From contig JAGRGP010000015.1 in NCBI GenBank assembly GCA_020445415.1, positions 1 to 64,000 on the forward strand: a DNA stretch of 64,000 nucleotides, given 5' to 3'. This DNA is from Gammaproteobacteria bacterium (lineage in GTDB: Bacteria; Pseudomonadota; Gammaproteobacteria; Chromatiales; Chromatiaceae). The notes below the pieces were generated by a model. It saw only the letters and a program-made list of their open reading frames with translations. It had not been told where the DNA came from and did no database searches. The position numbers and the translations under genes are program-made. Shown here piece by piece: positions 33,522 to 42,498 of the stretch (its first letter is position 1; each line of letters starts with the position of its first letter).

Positions 33522-34415
33522 ATGTTAGGTCAAAGAAAAGAGATCACGGTTACCCAGTTTACTCACCTGGACCTTGAGTTCGAGCCTGAACACAATATGG
33601 TTTGGTCAAGATTCAAGTATCCTGGCCGCCCCTGCATGAGCACTGACCTGGTGAAGGATGTAAGCAGGGCACAAAAGATAATTGCCGATCAGGCGAGGAG
33701 CCAATACGAGCATAAGCTGCCGTTCAGATTAAAATATCAGGTGTTCTGCTCGGAGTTACCGGGTGTTTTCAATCTGGGAGGAGATCTCGCCTATTTTATC
33801 CGCCTGATACGAGATAAAAATCGGATGGCCCTCTTTGACTACGCTAAGGAGTGCATCGATATTTTGTATCGAAACGCGACTAACTATGAAATTCCGTTCA
33901 CCACCATCGCGCTTGTTCAGGGCGAAACCTTGGGTGGGGGATTCGAGGCGGCCCTGTCGGCTAATCTTATTATTGCGGAAAAGGGTGCGAGATTTGGGTT
34001 TCCGGAAACGGTGTTCGGTATGTTCCCGGGTATGGGTGCGTTTAATTTTCTTGCCCGGAAGGTAGCGCCCGGACTAGCCAAGCGAATGATAGCTAGCGGC
34101 AAGGTCTACACTGCAGAGGAACTCTACGATATGGGTGTAGTTGATATCCTGGTGCCGGACGGAAACGGAAAGGAGGCCGTGTACGACTACATTCAACATC
34201 AACGTAATCGAAGCACCGGCTTTTATGGACTGGATCGGGTTATCGAGCAGTTCAACCCGTTATCGTACAAGGAGCTTCTGGATGTAATAACGCTCTGGGT
34301 CGATACGGCTATGCAGTTGTCGGATAAGAACATCCGGCTTATGGAGTATCTGGTACGCGCCCAGCAGAAACGTTGGTGCCGTGAAGAGGTTAAACTGGTC
34401 TCGATGGCCAGCTGA
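33522..34415 (+). CDS. rpfF: DSF synthase RpfF-like (crotonase family)
   Basis: RpfF enzymes use one active site first to dehydrate 3-hydroxyacyl-ACP to the cis-2-enoyl chain and then to release the free acid, the diffusible signal factor. The 297-residue product matches the family (289 in Xanthomonas). Conserved stretches include GVFNLGGDLAYFIRLIRDKN, VQGETLGGGFEAAL with the first catalytic Glu at 142, FGFPETVFGMFPGMGAF with the second Glu at 162, and the C-terminal LWVDTAMQL...RLMEYLVRAQ. The two glutamates correspond to Xcc E141 and E161. GGGAG sits eight bases before ATG 33522. It converges on rpfC. Ordinary enoyl-CoA hydratase is unlikely, because GGDLAYF and the C-terminal match are RpfF-specific. 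Confidence 0.92.
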   Translation: MLGQRKEITVTQFTHLDLEFEPEHNMVWSRFKYPGRPCMSTDLVKDVSRAQKIIADQARSQYEHKLPFRLKYQVFCSELPGVFNLGGDLAYFIRLIRDKNRMALFDYAKECIDILYRNATNYEIPFTTIALVQGETLGGGFEAALSANLIIAEKGARFGFPETVFGMFPGMGAFNFLARKVAPGLAKRMIASGKVYTAEELYDMGVVDILVPDGNGKEAVYDYIQHQRNRSTGFYGLDRVIEQFNPLSYKELLDVITLWVDTAMQLSDKNIRLMEYLVRAQQKRWCREEVKLVSMAS

Positions 34416-34564: not shown

Positions 34565-37117
34565 TTAGTGGATCGCGGGCCGGGAGTAGTGAAGTGACTC
34601 TGCCAAGGCCAATTTGGCCCTGTCCAATGCGGTAGTCAATGCTTTTACATGTCCAGGCCCTTCGGCCCCTAGCCTGGGCTCAGTTACCTGTTCCGCCAAG
34701 ATGGCAAGCTCTGAAAGCTCTTGTAATCCCAGATTGAGGCATGATCCCTTCAATGCGTGGGCGCTTGAAGTGAACCTGTCGAGGTCGCGGTTCGTTACCG
34801 CATCCGCCATGCTTTTTATCAGGCCTTCCCCTTCGTCCACCATGTTCTCGTACATTCGGGACAGGAAGCCCTGATCGGGCGCCAATTGGATGACGTCTGC
34901 AAGCACATGCTGGTCAAGGACCGTGGGATCACCGGAAACCACCTCGTTCGTTAGCGCCACATTGCTTTTTATTTCTTCATCCGGACTGTCTAGTAACCGG
35001 CTAGATGTAGCCCTTGAGATGGTCTGAAGTAGTTTCAAGGATGGCACGGGCTTGGTGAGAAAGTACTCGATACCGGCATTTTTACACGCATTTCGCGCGT
35101 TGGTGGTGGCGTTCGCGGTGAGCATGATAAAGGGTACCGGGTGGTCATCACTGGCATGCGCAAACCGGTACATCCGAAAGGCGTCGAGTCCGCCCAGAAC
35201 TGGCATATGCATATCGACGATAACAACATCATACCGTTCCCGCTCGAGTGCATCGAGTACCTGTTGACCGTTTTCGACGAGATGGTGCTGATAGCCTGCC
35301 TGCTCGAGGATGCGTCCGGTAACCAGCCGATTTACACTGTTGTCTTCAGCCACCAGTACCTTGATCGGGTGAATGGTATTGTGGTTGCGGACGAAGCGCT
35401 CCGACAGATTGATAACCCGGTCATCGTCGCCACCTACCCTGGAAGCATGTAAGGCATTAAATAACAGTGCCTTATCAAATGGCTGTCTTATCTTGTGAAT
35501 GACATTAGAGATATCCTTCAAGTCGTCTGGATTGATTGGGGTCTGCTCAGTTTCAACGACCAGTATTTTGATGTCAGGTAGAGAAAGGTCGGTACTTAGC
35601 GCAGACAGGAAATTCATGATTTCATCGTCAAACGCGATATCGTCGAGGATAATTACCTCGTACGGCGTGGTGCTGTTAGGGTTCTTAATGAGCAGACGTA
35701 ACGCCTCACGGGCGCTGGTTACATCACTATAAGGAACCCCCCATCCCAGAAGTGTATGTGAAATATCGGTATGCACGCCGGAACTTCTACAGAGTCTCAT
35801 GACCCTGCATTCTTGAACTTGGCGTATCTCATCATCCGCGATTAGTTCTGGCTGTAGTTGAAATTCAATGTCAAACCAGAAAGTTGAACCAATGCCCTGT
35901 GTACTTTGGATGCCGATGCGTCCTCCCATCAGCTCGACCAATTGACGTGCGATGGAGGTTCCCAAGCCTGTCCCCCCAAAGCGCCGGGTGGTGCTCTCGT
36001 CGGCTTGTGCAAAGTTTTCAAATATTCTTTTTTGCGCTTCGGGACTGATACCGATGCCGGTATCGGTAATCTCGAAACGTATCAAGGAGTGGTACTCCTG
36101 GTTCCTGATGCTATGGCAGCGAAGCTCTACCGAGCCTTTTTCTGTAAATTTAAGCGCATTGCTAACTAAGTTTATCAATACTTGCCGGAGATGATGGGGG
36201 TCGCCAACCAAGCGATAGGGCGTATCCAGACCGATATGGGAAACCAGTCTGAGGCGTTTGTTCTCCGCTTCCGGGGAAAACATTCGCAAAGTAGAATTAA
36301 TCAATGCATGAAGGTCGAAGTTGGTGTTTTCCATCACCACCTTTCCCGCTTCGATCTTGGAGATATCAAGAATATCTTCGATTAATTTGAGAAGATTCTT
36401 TCCTGATGCATTAATGATATCGACGTACTCCCTTTCCTCTAACCCTAGCCGACAGGACGTCAACAGTTCTCCTGTGCCAATGATTCCGTTTAGCGGAGTC
36501 CGGATCTCATGGCTCATACGAGCCAGAAACTCGCTCTTCGCACGGCTGGCCTCTTCTGCCCGCGAGCGTTCGAGATGAAGCCTCCGGATCAATACTGCGG
36601 CATAGCCTGGAAGGGCAATGAGCGCGATCAATAGACTGATTCCAAGCCCGAGGTGCTCTTGCCAGAAACTGTTTTTGGTCAGTACGTAAGTAAAACCGAC
36701 TACCGACAATACCCCGGACAGGTACAGGTACTTTTCGCCGTAGCGAAACCCGTTTCCAAATGTCACCCACAGGTAGACGGTAAACCAAGGAGCTCCGAGT
36801 TCTCCCAGTTGAGCTATAACATAGCTAAGGCCCCCGACATCCATTACGATGCCGATTAAGCGCCTGATCAAAGATGCTTTTGGGCGGAAGGCTGTAGAAA
36901 GTAAAATGAGAACCGAGAAGCCAAGAAAGGCGCTGAGCAGTTCGACACCCGAGACCCAAGATGCGTGGTCGGCGTGGTCCGAGGGCTCACTATGGATCAG
37001 GTAACCGAGTAGGCAGAGCGAAATAACAACCCGCACCGAGGCCTGTTCAAGTTCGGTGGTCCCGTACTTATTGAACCTGCCCAGGAACAAAAAAGGTTTG
37101 TTAAATGTGGCTCTCAT
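34565..37117 (-). CDS. rpfC: RpfC-like hybrid sensor histidine kinase
   Basis: Membrane kinase that senses DSF and feeds phosphate to RpfG. The 850-residue protein (ATG 37117; TTG 37120 also possible) has a short N-terminal cytoplasmic/periplasmic segment, five hydrophobic helices (~28-45, 56-78, 86-105, 110-148, 157-178), a HisKA H-box SHEIRTPLNG (His 203), N-box LINLVSNALKF, G-boxes DTGIGIS and GGTGLGTSIA, a degenerate receiver (~435-560), a complete receiver (~583-695; Asp in VVIVDMHMP, 635; Lys 689) and a C-terminal Hpt domain (SSAHALKGS, His 787). Xanthomonas RpfC (~726 residues) lacks the extra pseudo-receiver. It diverges from the acp gene. Confidence 0.9.
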   Translation of the reverse strand: MRATFNKPFLFLGRFNKYGTTELEQASVRVVISLCLLGYLIHSEPSDHADHASWVSGVELLSAFLGFSVLILLSTAFRPKASLIRRLIGIVMDVGGLSYVIAQLGELGAPWFTVYLWVTFGNGFRYGEKYLYLSGVLSVVGFTYVLTKNSFWQEHLGLGISLLIALIALPGYAAVLIRRLHLERSRAEEASRAKSEFLARMSHEIRTPLNGIIGTGELLTSCRLGLEEREYVDIINASGKNLLKLIEDILDISKIEAGKVVMENTNFDLHALINSTLRMFSPEAENKRLRLVSHIGLDTPYRLVGDPHHLRQVLINLVSNALKFTEKGSVELRCHSIRNQEYHSLIRFEITDTGIGISPEAQKRIFENFAQADESTTRRFGGTGLGTSIARQLVELMGGRIGIQSTQGIGSTFWFDIEFQLQPELIADDEIRQVQECRVMRLCRSSGVHTDISHTLLGWGVPYSDVTSAREALRLLIKNPNSTTPYEVIILDDIAFDDEIMNFLSALSTDLSLPDIKILVVETEQTPINPDDLKDISNVIHKIRQPFDKALLFNALHASRVGGDDDRVINLSERFVRNHNTIHPIKVLVAEDNSVNRLVTGRILEQAGYQHHLVENGQQVLDALERERYDVVIVDMHMPVLGGLDAFRMYRFAHASDDHPVPFIMLTANATTNARNACKNAGIEYFLTKPVPSLKLLQTISRATSSRLLDSPDEEIKSNVALTNEVVSGDPTVLDQHVLADVIQLAPDQGFLSRMYENMVDEGEGLIKSMADAVTNRDLDRFTSSAHALKGSCLNLGLQELSELAILAEQVTEPRLGAEGPGHVKALTTALDRAKLALAESLHYSRPAIH

Positions 37118-37141
37118 CAAGTGAACTTAGATATGCCTAGT

Positions 37142-37192: not shown

Positions 37193-37438
37193 ATGACAAA
37201 TAGTGTCGAGTACGAAGTTATTCGCGCCATCGCCAGACAAAAGCGTTTGGATCCGGACCAGATTCATTGCACTTCGATACTTGAAAAGCTGGGCATCACA
37301 TCATTAGACGCCATTACGATAGTCTATGATGTAGAAGAAATTTTTGATGTGGAGATCGACAACGATAAGCTGGGAGAGCTTGTTTCCGTTCAAGATATCA
37401 TCGACGGGGTAACCCAGCTTATCGAAGCAAAAGGCTAG
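37193..37438 (+). CDS. Dedicated acyl carrier protein
   Basis: An 81-residue acidic ACP. The phosphopantetheine-attachment serine is in LGITSLDAITIVYDVEE (Ser 37), where the common DSL is TSL; the helix-II acidic VEEIFDVEI motif that docks enzymes follows. This is not the housekeeping AcpP (usually DSL DTVE), so it is a specialised carrier, likely paired with the following beta-ketoacyl synthase. Its stop overlaps the KAS start by one base. Its role in making or loading the RpfF substrate is an inference. Confidence 0.9.
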   Translation: MTNSVEYEVIRAIARQKRLDPDQIHCTSILEKLGITSLDAITIVYDVEEIFDVEIDNDKLGELVSVQDIIDGVTQLIEAKG

Positions 37439-38652
37439 TGTCCAGAACAGTTGTGGTCACTGGGTTGGGGGCGGTCTCGGGCCTGGGCCTGACTGTTCCG
37501 CAGTTTTGGAAGAGTCTGGTAGAAGGACGATCAGGATTTACCGAACTCAAGGATACCGCTGGCTGGGATAGCCGTTTGAAGGTTCGTTTTGGGGCCCGGG
37601 TTCCGGGATACGATCCGCTTCGTTTTTTTTCGGCGGACGAGATTCCGCTACTCGACCGGCATACGCAGTTTGCGTTGATTGCCGCCAAAGAAGCGGTAGC
37701 GGACGCAGATCTTGATGATCAGCACCTGTTTTCGGCAGGGGTGGTACTGGGTACTGGTTGCGGAGGCAAGGAGACCGACGAAGAAACCTACTGCGCACTC
37801 TACCAGCGAGGCAAGTCCCGGGTTCATCCGCTTACCATCCCCCGAGGTATGCCTAGCGCGGCGGCCAGTCAACTCAGTATGAAGCTGGCTATCACAGGTC
37901 CGGTGTTTTCCATTTCGAGTGCTTGTTCGTCTGCGAACCACGCCGTGATTCAGAGTCAGATGATGATTCGAGCGGGCTTGGTTGACATTGTCCTAGCTGG
38001 GGGCACCGATGCCCCTTTTACCTTCGGGTTGCTAAAATCGTGGGAGGCGATGCGGGTTCTGGCATCCGATACCTGCCGGCCGTTTTCTGCGAATAGAAAC
38101 GGCCTGATATTGGGGGAGGGCGCGGGTATTCTAGTTTTGGAATCCTTTGAACACGCGCTTTCCCGGGGAGCCAGGATCTACGGTGAAATAGCCGGATGTG
38201 GCATGTCGGCGGATGCGGCGCATATTACAGTCCCATCCGTCGATGGCGCCGCTAAGGCAATCAACTATGCCCTGCAGGATGGGGGTATCGAACCGGCGCA
38301 AGTGGATTACGTTAATGCCCATGGTACCGGTACAAAAATTAACGATCCGTTTGAGACTAGGATACTGCACCAGGTATTTGGCGACCATGCAAATCGGCTG
38401 ATGGTTTCCTCCACGAAATCCATGCATGGACATACATTAGGCGCTGCTGGCGCGCACGAACTGATTGCGACCCTGCTGGCCATTCGGGACTCGCATATTC
38501 CACCTACCGCCAATTTTACCGAGCCGGGAGAAGGGTGCGATCTGGACTATGTGCCCAACCAGTCCCGGGACTCGAGTATTAATGTGGCCATTTCCAACTC
38601 CTTTGCTTTCGGTGGATTAAATGCCGTTATCGCCGTTCGTCGTTTGGACTGA
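37438..38652 (+). CDS. Beta-ketoacyl-ACP synthase (FabF/KAS II type)
   Basis: Condenses malonyl-ACP with an acyl chain to lengthen fatty acids or polyketides. The 404-residue product has a complete Cys-His-His triad: Cys 163 in SISSACSSANHA, His 295 in VNAHGTGTKIND, and His 332 in KSMHGHTLGAAGAHE. It starts with RTVVVTGLGAVSGLG, typical of FabF. The GTG start (37438) overlaps the acp stop. Being translated with the ACP, it probably elongates a dedicated chain, plausibly for the RpfF-made signal. It converges with the methyltransferase gene. Confidence 0.92.
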   Translation: MSRTVVVTGLGAVSGLGLTVPQFWKSLVEGRSGFTELKDTAGWDSRLKVRFGARVPGYDPLRFFSADEIPLLDRHTQFALIAAKEAVADADLDDQHLFSAGVVLGTGCGGKETDEETYCALYQRGKSRVHPLTIPRGMPSAAASQLSMKLAITGPVFSISSACSSANHAVIQSQMMIRAGLVDIVLAGGTDAPFTFGLLKSWEAMRVLASDTCRPFSANRNGLILGEGAGILVLESFEHALSRGARIYGEIAGCGMSADAAHITVPSVDGAAKAINYALQDGGIEPAQVDYVNAHGTGTKINDPFETRILHQVFGDHANRLMVSSTKSMHGHTLGAAGAHELIATLLAIRDSHIPPTANFTEPGEGCDLDYVPNQSRDSSINVAISNSFAFGGLNAVIAVRRLD

Positions 38653-38713: not shown

Positions 38714-39775
38714 TTAGGTCTTCTTACGGAAGACAAAATGCCCGTTTCCAAATAGCTCACCCTTGGACGGCAGAAAGCAGGCCTTGCAAAGGACAAAATA
38801 ATCATTCCAGTACTTGGCTTCTGTTTCGTCCTTGATTGCACTGCCGTAGAGCGTGTCCATATTGTGCCAGAGCCGCTTGTGCCATTCGTCGATCGTTTTC
38901 CAGTAGTTCATCCCATTGATAAACCAGCTTTTTGACAAGCGCATGAAGCGGTCTTGACGGCGGATGATTTCAAATGGCCATATCTTCCCACCCGGAAAGT
39001 AGGTGCCGATCATGGTCTTGTCGTCATGCAGGAACTGCGGGACGATTAGGCGGGACGCCACCATGTGAAGAAAAAACAACCCGCCCGGCTTCAGTAATTT
39101 GTCGATGAGTTCAAAGACCGCGTCGAGGTTATTGATATGTTCAAAACACCCGATAGAAAAAACTCTGTCGTATTCTCTGTCACCTAATTCACTCAGCGGA
39201 ACTTCACTAAAATCGCCTTGGATAAGACGCAGCTTACCCCGGCTTATCGGGTGATTTGTATTGGCGCGGCATGACTCGATAAAGTCGATTTGATCGGGGC
39301 TTGGTGTGATGCTGGTGATATCAACCTTGGGAAAGGCTGTGAACAGATAGGTTTCCAGAGGGCCGTATCCACACCCGATATTGAATATCTTTTCGTCGCC
39401 ATGGATTTCGGCACGCCGACAAACCAACTCGAACTTGTTCCGCTCCGCTTCTTCGAGACTCAGTTTGGAAGAAGCAACATCGTGCGCGGTTTCACCATAG
39501 TAAGCCATGGTGTAGGCCATGAATTCGTGATCGAGGAAACCGCTGAAGGGTGTTACATGGGCGTTGTAGTGATTTTCAATCAGTGCCCGGGTATCTTTCC
39601 ACATCGGCCCCCGGTTTGTGGTGACGGTGTCTAGAGCTTGACTTTCTGGGTTATGGAGTAACCTCTGATACTCCCGGCTAAAATAACGGCCAAGGTGTCC
39701 TTCATAGCGAATAAGTTCGGGTGTGCCATGGGCGAAAATACCTGCCTCACGAAGGCTGGCTGATACGCCAATCAT
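38714..39775 (-). CDS. CFA-synthase-like S-adenosylmethionine methyltransferase
   Basis: Member of the cyclopropane/mycolic-acid methyltransferase family, which add a methylene or methyl group across an acyl-chain double bond. The 353-residue product has the SAM-binding motif FNIGCGYGPLE (131-141), the active-site E-H pair in CFEHINN (E212), the His of FFLHMV (H237) and a tyrosine in NGMNYWKT (Y291), which match E. coli Cfa E239, H266 and Y317. The Cfa C139 position (SCAYW) is Met here (TMAYY, M90), so the product may differ from a cyclopropane. GGAG precedes ATG 39775. It is downstream of the kinase-less RpfC paralogue, and substrate choice (lipid or signal) is unknown. Confidence 0.85.
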   Translation of the reverse strand: MIGVSASLREAGIFAHGTPELIRYEGHLGRYFSREYQRLLHNPESQALDTVTTNRGPMWKDTRALIENHYNAHVTPFSGFLDHEFMAYTMAYYGETAHDVASSKLSLEEAERNKFELVCRRAEIHGDEKIFNIGCGYGPLETYLFTAFPKVDITSITPSPDQIDFIESCRANTNHPISRGKLRLIQGDFSEVPLSELGDREYDRVFSIGCFEHINNLDAVFELIDKLLKPGGLFFLHMVASRLIVPQFLHDDKTMIGTYFPGGKIWPFEIIRRQDRFMRLSKSWFINGMNYWKTIDEWHKRLWHNMDTLYGSAIKDETEAKYWNDYFVLCKACFLPSKGELFGNGHFVFRKKT

Positions 39776-39792: not shown

Positions 39793-41385
39793 CTAGTCTT
39801 TTCTGTAGTCCAGTTCTCGAAGGTCTTTCTCCCTGATGTAATTTTGCAACGCATCATTCGATAGCCGGCAGCATTCTGTCAATTGTTGTAGCAGATCAAG
39901 TGCATTTTGGCGGAATGCCTCGGAGGGGATGTGACTGGCCGCAGTTCCCAGTTCGAATAATCGAATCGTTCCCAGACTACCGGCACTGTCTTTGATTGCA
40001 TGGCCGAGATCACGGAAACGGGAGAGATCGCCCTTTTTGATAGCAAGTTCCATCTGGGTAAGGAAATGCCGGTTGTCACGGTTAAAGCTGTCTATCAGAT
40101 CTGATAGGAAAGCGGTATTCCCCCCGAGATTCTCCAACTCGGCAAGCCGATTCCGATCCAAGGCGGTATCGGCGGTATGCCCACCGACAAAACCGGTGGT
40201 CTGATGAAGGTGTTGACGGTGATAATTTTGCCGGGCTTGGCCTTGGTCACCACTCTCCAAAACGACCTTTTTCAGAACATTCATGATTGTCTTAGGATCA
40301 GCACCTGCTTCCAAGATGGCATTGACCCCAGATTCCTCACACCGTTGGCGGTCGCTATCGCCAGGATTGTGCAACAGCAATATGAACGGAGTGCGTTGCT
40401 TGTCTATTCGGGTGAAGCGGTACAGATTGAAAGCCTCGATACCACTTATTTCCCGAAGTTCCCGGGACACAATCGCCAGGTCAAACTGGTGACTGTCCAG
40501 AGCGTCCAGAACCCGTGCTCCAGAATCGACCAGAAAGACCTGGTGCCCTTGCTGTTGAAGAACAGCGCGTATCCGTTGCTGTTCTCCCCGGCGGTTTTCT
40601 GCAAGCAGAATACTGAGCGGCGGTGATGTCGTGGAAGCAGTATAGCGATCAATGATCTTGGCAACCCCGGGTCGCGGTTCAAGGGGAGCGGAGCGCAGGT
40701 TGTGAAGGGCGTCGAACAAAAGGGTTTTGTTCAGGGGCACCGGGACGAGTCTTGTGTAGCCCAGCCGGTTTAATCCCCCCTCCTCGATTTCCGCAGGCCG
40801 GGCACCAATCAGAATAAGGTAGATGTCCTGTAGGTGCTGTTCGGATCGAAGTGCAGCGCTGAACTGGCTTGCGTCCATGTCGAATAGCCCTCGGTCCACA
40901 ATAACCACATGGTAAGGGGAATGCGCTTCAGACGCCCGCAGCAACTCATAGAACGAGCGGGCCGCAGTGCTGCATACCGTGGGTGTTATGCCCCATGAAT
41001 CCAAATGCCTCAAGATTCCGTGACGATCGGATTTATCATTGGTCAAGACGAGAATTCGTTGATCGGAAATCTTGAGTAGAGACTGCGGGCCTTCTGGAGA
41101 AGGGGGCAACGGGGAGGGTGGGCTGTACCGGTTCGAATACTTAGGCGTACTTTCCTTGGCTGGCTTATTCCCGGGTTCGTTGTGCTCCTCTGATTTGTAT
41201 CCCGAATCGCTGACTAGCCAGAGTATGACGGCTATAAGTGAAGTTGCCGATATCAAGAGTGTGTCAAGACCCGATGAGGGCAACCAATTATCACCGAAAA
41301 CAAACAGCAAGACTATTCCCAGTGCGCACACAGCCCCGGCGAAACGCCTACATAACATCCATATCCCGGGACTCATGGGTGTCAT
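39793..41385 (-). CDS. Kinase-less RpfC paralogue: TM, two pseudo-receivers, Hpt
   Basis: From ATG 41385 (GAGGA seven bases upstream) the protein has 530 residues; an alternative ATG 41427 adds 14. Two hydrophobic segments (~9-30 and ~40-57) are followed by a Pro-rich linker and two receiver-like domains (~108-235, ~257-375) that align with the receiver part of the neighbouring RpfC (LLFDALHNLR / LLFNALHASR; EAFNLYRFTR / DAFRMYRFAH). HisKA and ATPase domains are absent. In the second receiver the Asp pair reads AENR instead of AEDN, the phosphoacceptor Asp is Ser (AIVSRELRE), and the Lys is replaced (ILEAGADP), so it cannot be phosphorylated in the normal way. The C-terminal Hpt keeps its His (LGHAIKDSAGSLG, His 462). 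It probably modulates or shuttles in RpfC signalling (inference). Confidence 0.85.
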   Translation of the reverse strand: MTPMSPGIWMLCRRFAGAVCALGIVLLFVFGDNWLPSSGLDTLLISATSLIAVILWLVSDSGYKSEEHNEPGNKPAKESTPKYSNRYSPPSPLPPSPEGPQSLLKISDQRILVLTNDKSDRHGILRHLDSWGITPTVCSTAARSFYELLRASEAHSPYHVVIVDRGLFDMDASQFSAALRSEQHLQDIYLILIGARPAEIEEGGLNRLGYTRLVPVPLNKTLLFDALHNLRSAPLEPRPGVAKIIDRYTASTTSPPLSILLAENRRGEQQRIRAVLQQQGHQVFLVDSGARVLDALDSHQFDLAIVSRELREISGIEAFNLYRFTRIDKQRTPFILLLHNPGDSDRQRCEESGVNAILEAGADPKTIMNVLKKVVLESGDQGQARQNYHRQHLHQTTGFVGGHTADTALDRNRLAELENLGGNTAFLSDLIDSFNRDNRHFLTQMELAIKKGDLSRFRDLGHAIKDSAGSLGTIRLFELGTAASHIPSEAFRQNALDLLQQLTECCRLSNDALQNYIREKDLRELDYRKD

Positions 41386-41439
41386 TTGTTTATCCTCGTG
41401 TTGGAAAGAAAATTCCACCATCACCATTAAGCGGGGGAG

Positions 41440-42498
41440 CTAACGGCTGATCACCTTGTTGTTGTCGCCGAACTGATGTCGTATCACCATGACTTGATCA
41501 AGGCGACTGAAGAAGGCGTCTATACAGTTTGGGTCAAAATGAAATCCCCGTTGTTGCCGCATGTACTCCAAGGTACGATCCATTGACCAAGCTTTTTTGT
41601 AAGGTCTTTCCGATAACAGAGCGTCGAACACATCTGCAACAGCCGCCGTTCTTGCCTCGATCGGAATTGCCTCTCCCGCCGCACCGTTGGGGTATCCCCT
41701 ACCGTCGAATCTTTCGTGGTGACTGAGAGCAATTATAGCCCCTGATTTTAGAAAACAGGATGGGCTATCCCGCAATATCTCATAGCCGATACGGGTATGA
41801 ACTTGCATAACACTCCATTCGGTGCTGGAAAGTTTCCCGGGTTTCAGAAGTACCTGGTCCGGGACACCGATCTTGCCAATATCGTGCATCGGCGCGGCAT
41901 GCCGTATTATGTTACAGGTATCTCGATCGAGACCCATTTCATCCGCTACAAGAAAGGCATACTCGGCCATCCTAATTACGTGATTGCCGGTTTCTTCATC
42001 ACGGTATTCACCCGCCTTCGCGAGCCTAAGCAGGGTCTCCTTTTCTCTCAGTTCAAGTTGGTTGGTCTTGGTGTAAACTTCTTGTTCGAGCCAACGGGCA
42101 CGGTCCTTGATGATCTGCTGCTGCTGCCGCAACTGCAACAAATTTCGGCAACGGGCGCGACATTCGTAATGATCGATGGGTTTGGAGAGAAAATCTGTAG
42201 CGCCTGCTTCCAATGCTTTGTAGCGTACCGACTTGTCATCCACACAGGTGATGATAACGATTGGCACATCCATACAAGATGGAATCTGCCGAAGCCACTG
42301 GGTGAATGCCACACCGTCCATGACCGGCATCTTGTAGTCGGTTATCACCAGATCGTGACTGTTTCGCTTGGCCCACTCAAGCGCTTTTACGGGATCAGCG
42401 AAACTCTCCACATGAATGTTCTTATCAATGGAGCGAATCAGCTCTTCCAGAATCATCCGGCTGATCGATTGATCATCGATGATTAATACAGTTGACAT
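41440..42498 (-). CDS. rpfG: RpfG-like HD-GYP response regulator (c-di-GMP phosphodiesterase)
   Basis: Output of DSF signalling: a receiver domain controls c-di-GMP hydrolysis to GMP. The 352-residue product has a complete receiver (IIDDQ, Asp 54 in VITDYKMPVMDG, Lys in FLSKP) and an HD-GYP domain with MHDIGKIGVPD (His-Asp 205-206) and HHERFDGRGYPNG (GYP 268-270), i.e. the metal and catalytic residues are all present. A helical linker joins the domains. It is followed in the same direction by the RpfC paralogue and methyltransferase, likely one transcript. Confidence 0.93.
   Translation of the reverse strand: MSTVLIIDDQSISRMILEELIRSIDKNIHVESFADPVKALEWAKRNSHDLVITDYKMPVMDGVAFTQWLRQIPSCMDVPIVIITCVDDKSVRYKALEAGATDFLSKPIDHYECRARCRNLLQLRQQQQIIKDRARWLEQEVYTKTNQLELREKETLLRLAKAGEYRDEETGNHVIRMAEYAFLVADEMGLDRDTCNIIRHAAPMHDIGKIGVPDQVLLKPGKLSSTEWSVMQVHTRIGYEILRDSPSCFLKSGAIIALSHHERFDGRGYPNGAAGEAIPIEARTAAVADVFDALLSERPYKKAWSMDRTLEYMRQQRGFHFDPNCIDAFFSRLDQVMVIRHQFGDNNKVISR

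Follow-up and report, generated by a model that had tools for sequence, protein, structure and literature searches.

A conserved kinase-less RpfC paralogue encoded beside rpfG that probably acts through protein contact

A gammaproteobacterium of the Chromatiaceae encodes, directly after the quorum-sensing response regulator gene rpfG, a second RpfC-related protein that has no kinase domains and whose second receiver domain has lost its active site. The gene lies in the window analysed here, which comprises positions 1 to 64,000 of contig JAGRGP010000015.1 (assembly GCA_020445415.1; 64,000 nucleotides). Comparison with relatives shows that the paralogue is under purifying selection and that relay chemistry is dispensable across the paralogue group as a whole. 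On these sequence grounds, the protein probably acts via protein contact and not via phosphate transfer, and our leading interpretation, which we hold tentatively and at a little below an even chance, is that it serves as an RpfG-dedicated pseudo-phosphorelay adaptor or decoy.

The paralogue gene spans 39793..41385 on the minus strand and encodes 530 amino acids from an ATG at 41385, within a reading frame that remains open to 41427 (544 amino acids). The 530-residue start is probably the right one, because the motif GAGG lies about 8 nt upstream of the ATG at 41385, whereas no such motif precedes the ATG at 41427 that was chosen by the ORF tool. Residue numbers given here nevertheless follow the 544-residue frame, so that His462 of the 530-residue numbering is His476. 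Adjoining the gene upstream, as the initial annotation had placed it, is rpfG (41440..42498, minus strand), which encodes a receiver and HD-GYP response regulator with intact motif residues in both domains. On its other side, the paralogue is bordered by a gene for a cyclopropane-fatty-acid-synthase-type (CFA-type) SAM methyltransferase (38714..39775, minus strand). Beyond this lie a FabF-like beta-ketoacyl synthase (KAS; 37438..38652, plus strand), an intact hybrid kinase gene rpfC (34565..37120, minus strand; HisKA, HATPase, a receiver with its Asp and an Hpt domain with its His) and, convergent with rpfC, the DSF-synthase homologue rpfF of the crotonase family (33522..34415, plus strand). 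The order along the forward strand is thus rpfF, rpfC, KAS, methyltransferase, paralogue and rpfG, with only rpfF and the KAS gene reading forward. Two MAGs of the same genus, Sedimenticola and others have a cluster order that is identical or closely similar. The KAS and methyltransferase genes are conserved in many relatives and sit inside the rpf cluster in several genera, and their products could synthesise or alter a signal of the DSF family.

Common descent of the paralogue with RpfC is shown by its sequence. BLASTP aligns it to the RpfC of the window with 26% identity over 401 residues (E 6e-37), and the match is colinear through a pseudo-receiver, a receiver and an Hpt domain. Pfam recovers Response_reg (2.2e-10) and Hpt (2.8e-5) in the paralogue, and no match to HisKA or HATPase was obtained with Pfam or to histidine kinases with the kinase profile, which bears out the proposal that the kinase domains are missing. 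An AlphaFold2 model has two hydrophobic helices towards the N terminus, followed by two (beta-alpha)5 domains and, at the C terminus, a helical bundle, in agreement with the predicted layout of two transmembrane segments, two receivers and an Hpt domain; with a mean pLDDT of 74.5 and a pTM of 0.32, the model is usable for the domain folds and not for their arrangement. The AlphaFold2 secondary structure and hydropathy both indicate the two transmembrane helices, which are predicted at residues 20-45 and 54-75 (41203..41368, minus strand). We did not find an RpfC-type input region with five transmembrane segments and an N-terminal DSF sensor in the window protein, which has the two helices in its place.

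The first receiver, REC1 (residues 122-245; 40693..41064, minus strand), matches the degenerate receiver-like segment that lies between HATPase and REC in RpfC. Since this first receiver is degenerate in RpfC itself, the two receivers plus Hpt simply correspond to the C-terminal half of RpfC. The second receiver, REC2 (residues 270-390; 40258..40620, minus strand), superimposes on the solved receiver of Xanthomonas RpfC (3m6m, chain 3m6m_D) with a TM score of 0.90. Its active site is lost: pairwise and 129-sequence alignments agree that AED has become AEN, that VDM has become VSR, with Ser in place of the phosphoacceptor Asp, and that the Lys of the KP motif is gone. Neither alignment reveals an intact Asp that had been misplaced in the original reading. 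The Hpt domain (residues 421-533; 39829..40167, minus strand) contains His476 and Lys479, and the usual Gly480 is replaced by Asp.

We surveyed 194 genomes of the family by profile search and then read the loci, a tally that yielded a kinase-less copy in 40 genomes from 12 genera, including Sedimenticola. A contig scan with the single sequence returned no match, and an alignment-based scan returned 53 loci. The same paralogue recurs in other rpf loci, and it does co-occur with rpf genes in relatives. At every paralogue locus whose upstream side is on the contig, rpfG is immediately upstream on the same strand, with a 4-nt overlap between the two genes in most of one genus. All tested active-site residues of the RpfG receiver and HD-GYP domains are kept at 48 of 48 paralogue loci. 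We identified an intact RpfC, distinct from the paralogue, in 38 of these 40 carriers, the other two (G041 and G063) being incomplete MAGs (84% and 81%). In most genera, intact RpfC, RpfF, KAS and methyltransferase genes also adjoin the paralogue. The input region varies: several genera have an RpfC-like one with multiple transmembrane segments, many have one cut down to two helices, and a few short members show no transmembrane segment.

Reading the loci also turned up several features that we record separately. Thioalkalivibrio sulfidiphilus ALJ17 appeared to carry a kinase-less copy (L095) that proved to be part of an RpfC split into two ORFs, one of 541 amino acids with the kinase and one of 393 amino acids with receiver and Hpt; the split may be genuine or may reflect a frameshift or an assembly error, and the locus was excluded from our counts. 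An apparent fusion of paralogue and methyltransferase (L152 in G127, 802 amino acids) arises from reading through a run of N and is not a fusion. The paralogue L128 of G113 is broken by an in-frame TGA, and its relatives in the same genus are intact. Upstream of rpfG, loci L127, L129, L130, L047 and L048, from several genera, encode a protein of about 265-275 amino acids that is weakly RpfG-like (45-54 bits).

To place the paralogue relative to RpfC, we used a 412-column C-terminal region from which the catalytic columns had been taken out. The kinase-less proteins form one group with support of 89/87 in a 64-row tree and 84/88 in a 40-row tree, and with weaker support (50) in an 89-row tree. 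The clustered RpfCs form a separate clade (100/100 in the 64-row tree), and a topology that joins the paralogue to this clade has an AU p value of 0.061. An origin of the paralogue in a local duplication of the RpfC found in the window is therefore disfavoured but not rejected, and descent from an rpfG-linked RpfC is likely. MAGs labelled as Chromatiaceae, as well as Nitrosomonadales/Gallionellaceae, have a single full-length RpfC behind rpfG, facing rpfF. A full-length rpfG-linked RpfC in G012 was considered as a kinase-bearing intermediate, but the tree puts it with another RpfC clade.

Loss of relay residues extends well beyond the window protein. Of the 31 paralogues in the tree, 21 have lost the receiver Asp, 29 the second acidic receiver residue, 11 the receiver Lys and 12 the Hpt His, the last through at least four changes within the group; none of the 58 RpfCs has lost any of these residues. 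The Gly of the Hpt HxxKG motif is replaced in all 31 paralogues, almost always by Asp, compared with 5 of 58 RpfCs. The intact Hpt His highlighted by the initial annotation is thus a property of the window protein and its genus, all three members of which keep both His and Lys, and not of the group. The REC2 Asp is kept in most Sedimenticola members. Compared with RpfC, mean entropy is lower in the paralogue for REC1 (2.12 versus 2.69) and Hpt (2.12 versus 2.42) and higher for REC2 (1.90 versus 1.60).

These losses could be read as the decay of a pseudogene that is drifting out of the genome, a view to which the in-frame TGA in G113 and the fact that dN exceeds the RpfC value in most comparisons might be added. 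We regard it as very improbable. Between close relatives, paralogue dN/dS is 0.08-0.31 (Nei-Gojobori; a plain pairwise estimate, as the entropies are plain estimates), including in genera that lack both Asp and His; although usually somewhat above the RpfC value, this range shows that the paralogues are not decaying pseudogenes. Open reading frames across the 12 genera and the placement of the proteins in one old group likewise speak against decay. The same low ratios bear on the suggestion that the protein is a phosphate shuttle or sink, its Hpt His taking phosphate from the RpfC receiver and passing it to RpfG, or draining it back from RpfG. Retention of His and Lys by the window protein and both of its same-genus relatives, and of the REC2 Asp by most Sedimenticola members, speaks for such an activity, and a shuttle could apply in the window's genus. 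Replacement of the KG Gly need not by itself abolish transfer, because the five RpfC Hpt domains mentioned above also lack it. With the His lost in 12 of 31 paralogues under continued constraint and the Gly in all 31, however, a shuttle cannot be the conserved role, and RpfC moreover has an intact Hpt of its own. We consider this explanation unlikely.

A further proposal was that the degenerate REC2 titrates RpfF, binding the DSF synthase as the Xanthomonas RpfC receiver does and so tuning DSF output. REC2 has kept the fold of the RpfC receiver, most carriers have rpfF in the cluster, and phosphorelay is not needed for RpfC to repress RpfF (PMC4504480). On the other hand, rpfF is missing from the surroundings of rpfG, the paralogue and rpfC at ten loci of one genus, and a genome-wide search for RpfF in three of its genomes that are 98-99% complete (G187, G198 and G202) found none, only short crotonase-like stretches giving matches. 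Because these three genomes still keep rpfG, the paralogue and rpfC, RpfF is not an obligate partner; REC2 is, in addition, the domain that is more variable in the paralogue than in RpfC. Titration could apply in the window's genus but fails as a conserved role, and it seems to us a rather unlikely account overall. In a separate observation, L043 (G009) belongs to a genus without rpfF at the rpfG locus, in some genomes of which RpfC-like ORFs and a divergent RpfF occur at a second locus. The paralogue might alternatively join RpfC at the membrane and alter the balance between its kinase and phosphatase activities, in the way that RetS acts on GacS. Intact RpfC co-occurs with the paralogue except in the two incomplete MAGs, and several genera keep the RpfC-like input region with multiple transmembrane segments. 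The paralogue nevertheless lacks the dimerisation (DHp) domain, which is where RetS contacts GacS, and its input region consists of only two helices in many genera and of none in a few. This partnership with RpfC strikes us as unlikely.

We therefore return to an adaptor or decoy dedicated to RpfG. We infer that contact with RpfC or RpfG is to be preferred, and RpfG is the constant neighbour; contact with RpfG is proposed from this gene order and from fold logic. The linkage could instead be an inherited position, since rpfC itself sits behind rpfG in relatives that lack the paralogue. In the proposed mechanism, the protein would act as a pseudo-RpfC consisting of the RpfC C-terminal half, which in the form found in the window is anchored in the membrane through two helices. 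Docking would pair its Hpt fold with the receiver of RpfG, or else its receiver with the Hpt of RpfC, and the docked paralogue would compete with or tether the real partner. Such competition or tethering may determine at what threshold, or over what dynamic range, DSF controls the c-di-GMP phosphodiesterase RpfG. In lineages where the Hpt His persists, among them the window's genus, some residual phosphate exchange would be possible. There are precedents: RpfC represses DSF synthesis through receiver-RpfF contact without phosphorelay (PMC4504480), RpfG works through protein contacts with GGDEF proteins (PMC3749722), and AHP6, a pseudo-Hpt, is an inhibitor of cytokinin signalling (PMC3572949). 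A broader and more doubtful, though possible, reading is that the paralogue belongs to the Rpf/DSF system throughout the family, as a part not described before, and regulates RpfG by contact independent of phosphorylation, even where a DSF synthase is absent.

In textbooks, it is RpfCG that couples a fatty-acid signal to c-di-GMP. If the proposal is true, a catalytically dead yet conserved relative of RpfC would add a phosphorylation-independent layer of control to this pair and provide a bacterial parallel to the pseudo-Hpt inhibitors of plants. We found no description of the paralogue in a search of openly licensed papers, and no paper among them that pairs Sedimenticola with rpfF or with diffusible signal factor. 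The presence of the gene in cultured environmental Sedimenticola strains makes the idea directly testable, and the separate loss of the receiver Asp, the Hpt His and the membrane input in different genera offers a natural series.

The paralogue can be compared with several known systems. Like RpfC of Xanthomonas and relatives, it has a colinear pseudo-receiver, receiver and Hpt, is membrane-anchored in most members and is encoded in an rpf cluster beside rpfG; it differs in lacking HisKA and HATPase, in the loss of the receiver active site and, in the window, in an input region of two helices. RetS of Pseudomonas, a hybrid kinase that modulates GacS, is similarly a hybrid-kinase relative acting on another system by contact. 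RetS has kept its kinase region and contacts GacS through it, whereas the paralogue has none. AHP6 of Arabidopsis shares with several of the relatives identified here an Hpt fold without the phospho-His and offers the logic of a non-transferring competitor, but it is a plant protein consisting of Hpt only, whereas the window protein adds receivers and transmembrane helices and still has its His. A positional counterpart is RpfH of the Xanthomonas rpfGHC operon, likewise an additional, partial relative of RpfC whose gene immediately follows rpfG (PMC3744752, PMC4504480), deletion of which changed only four transcripts (PMC3744752). By its description, which is the basis of our comparison, RpfH resembles the RpfC input domain, whereas the paralogue represents the opposite, C-terminal half.
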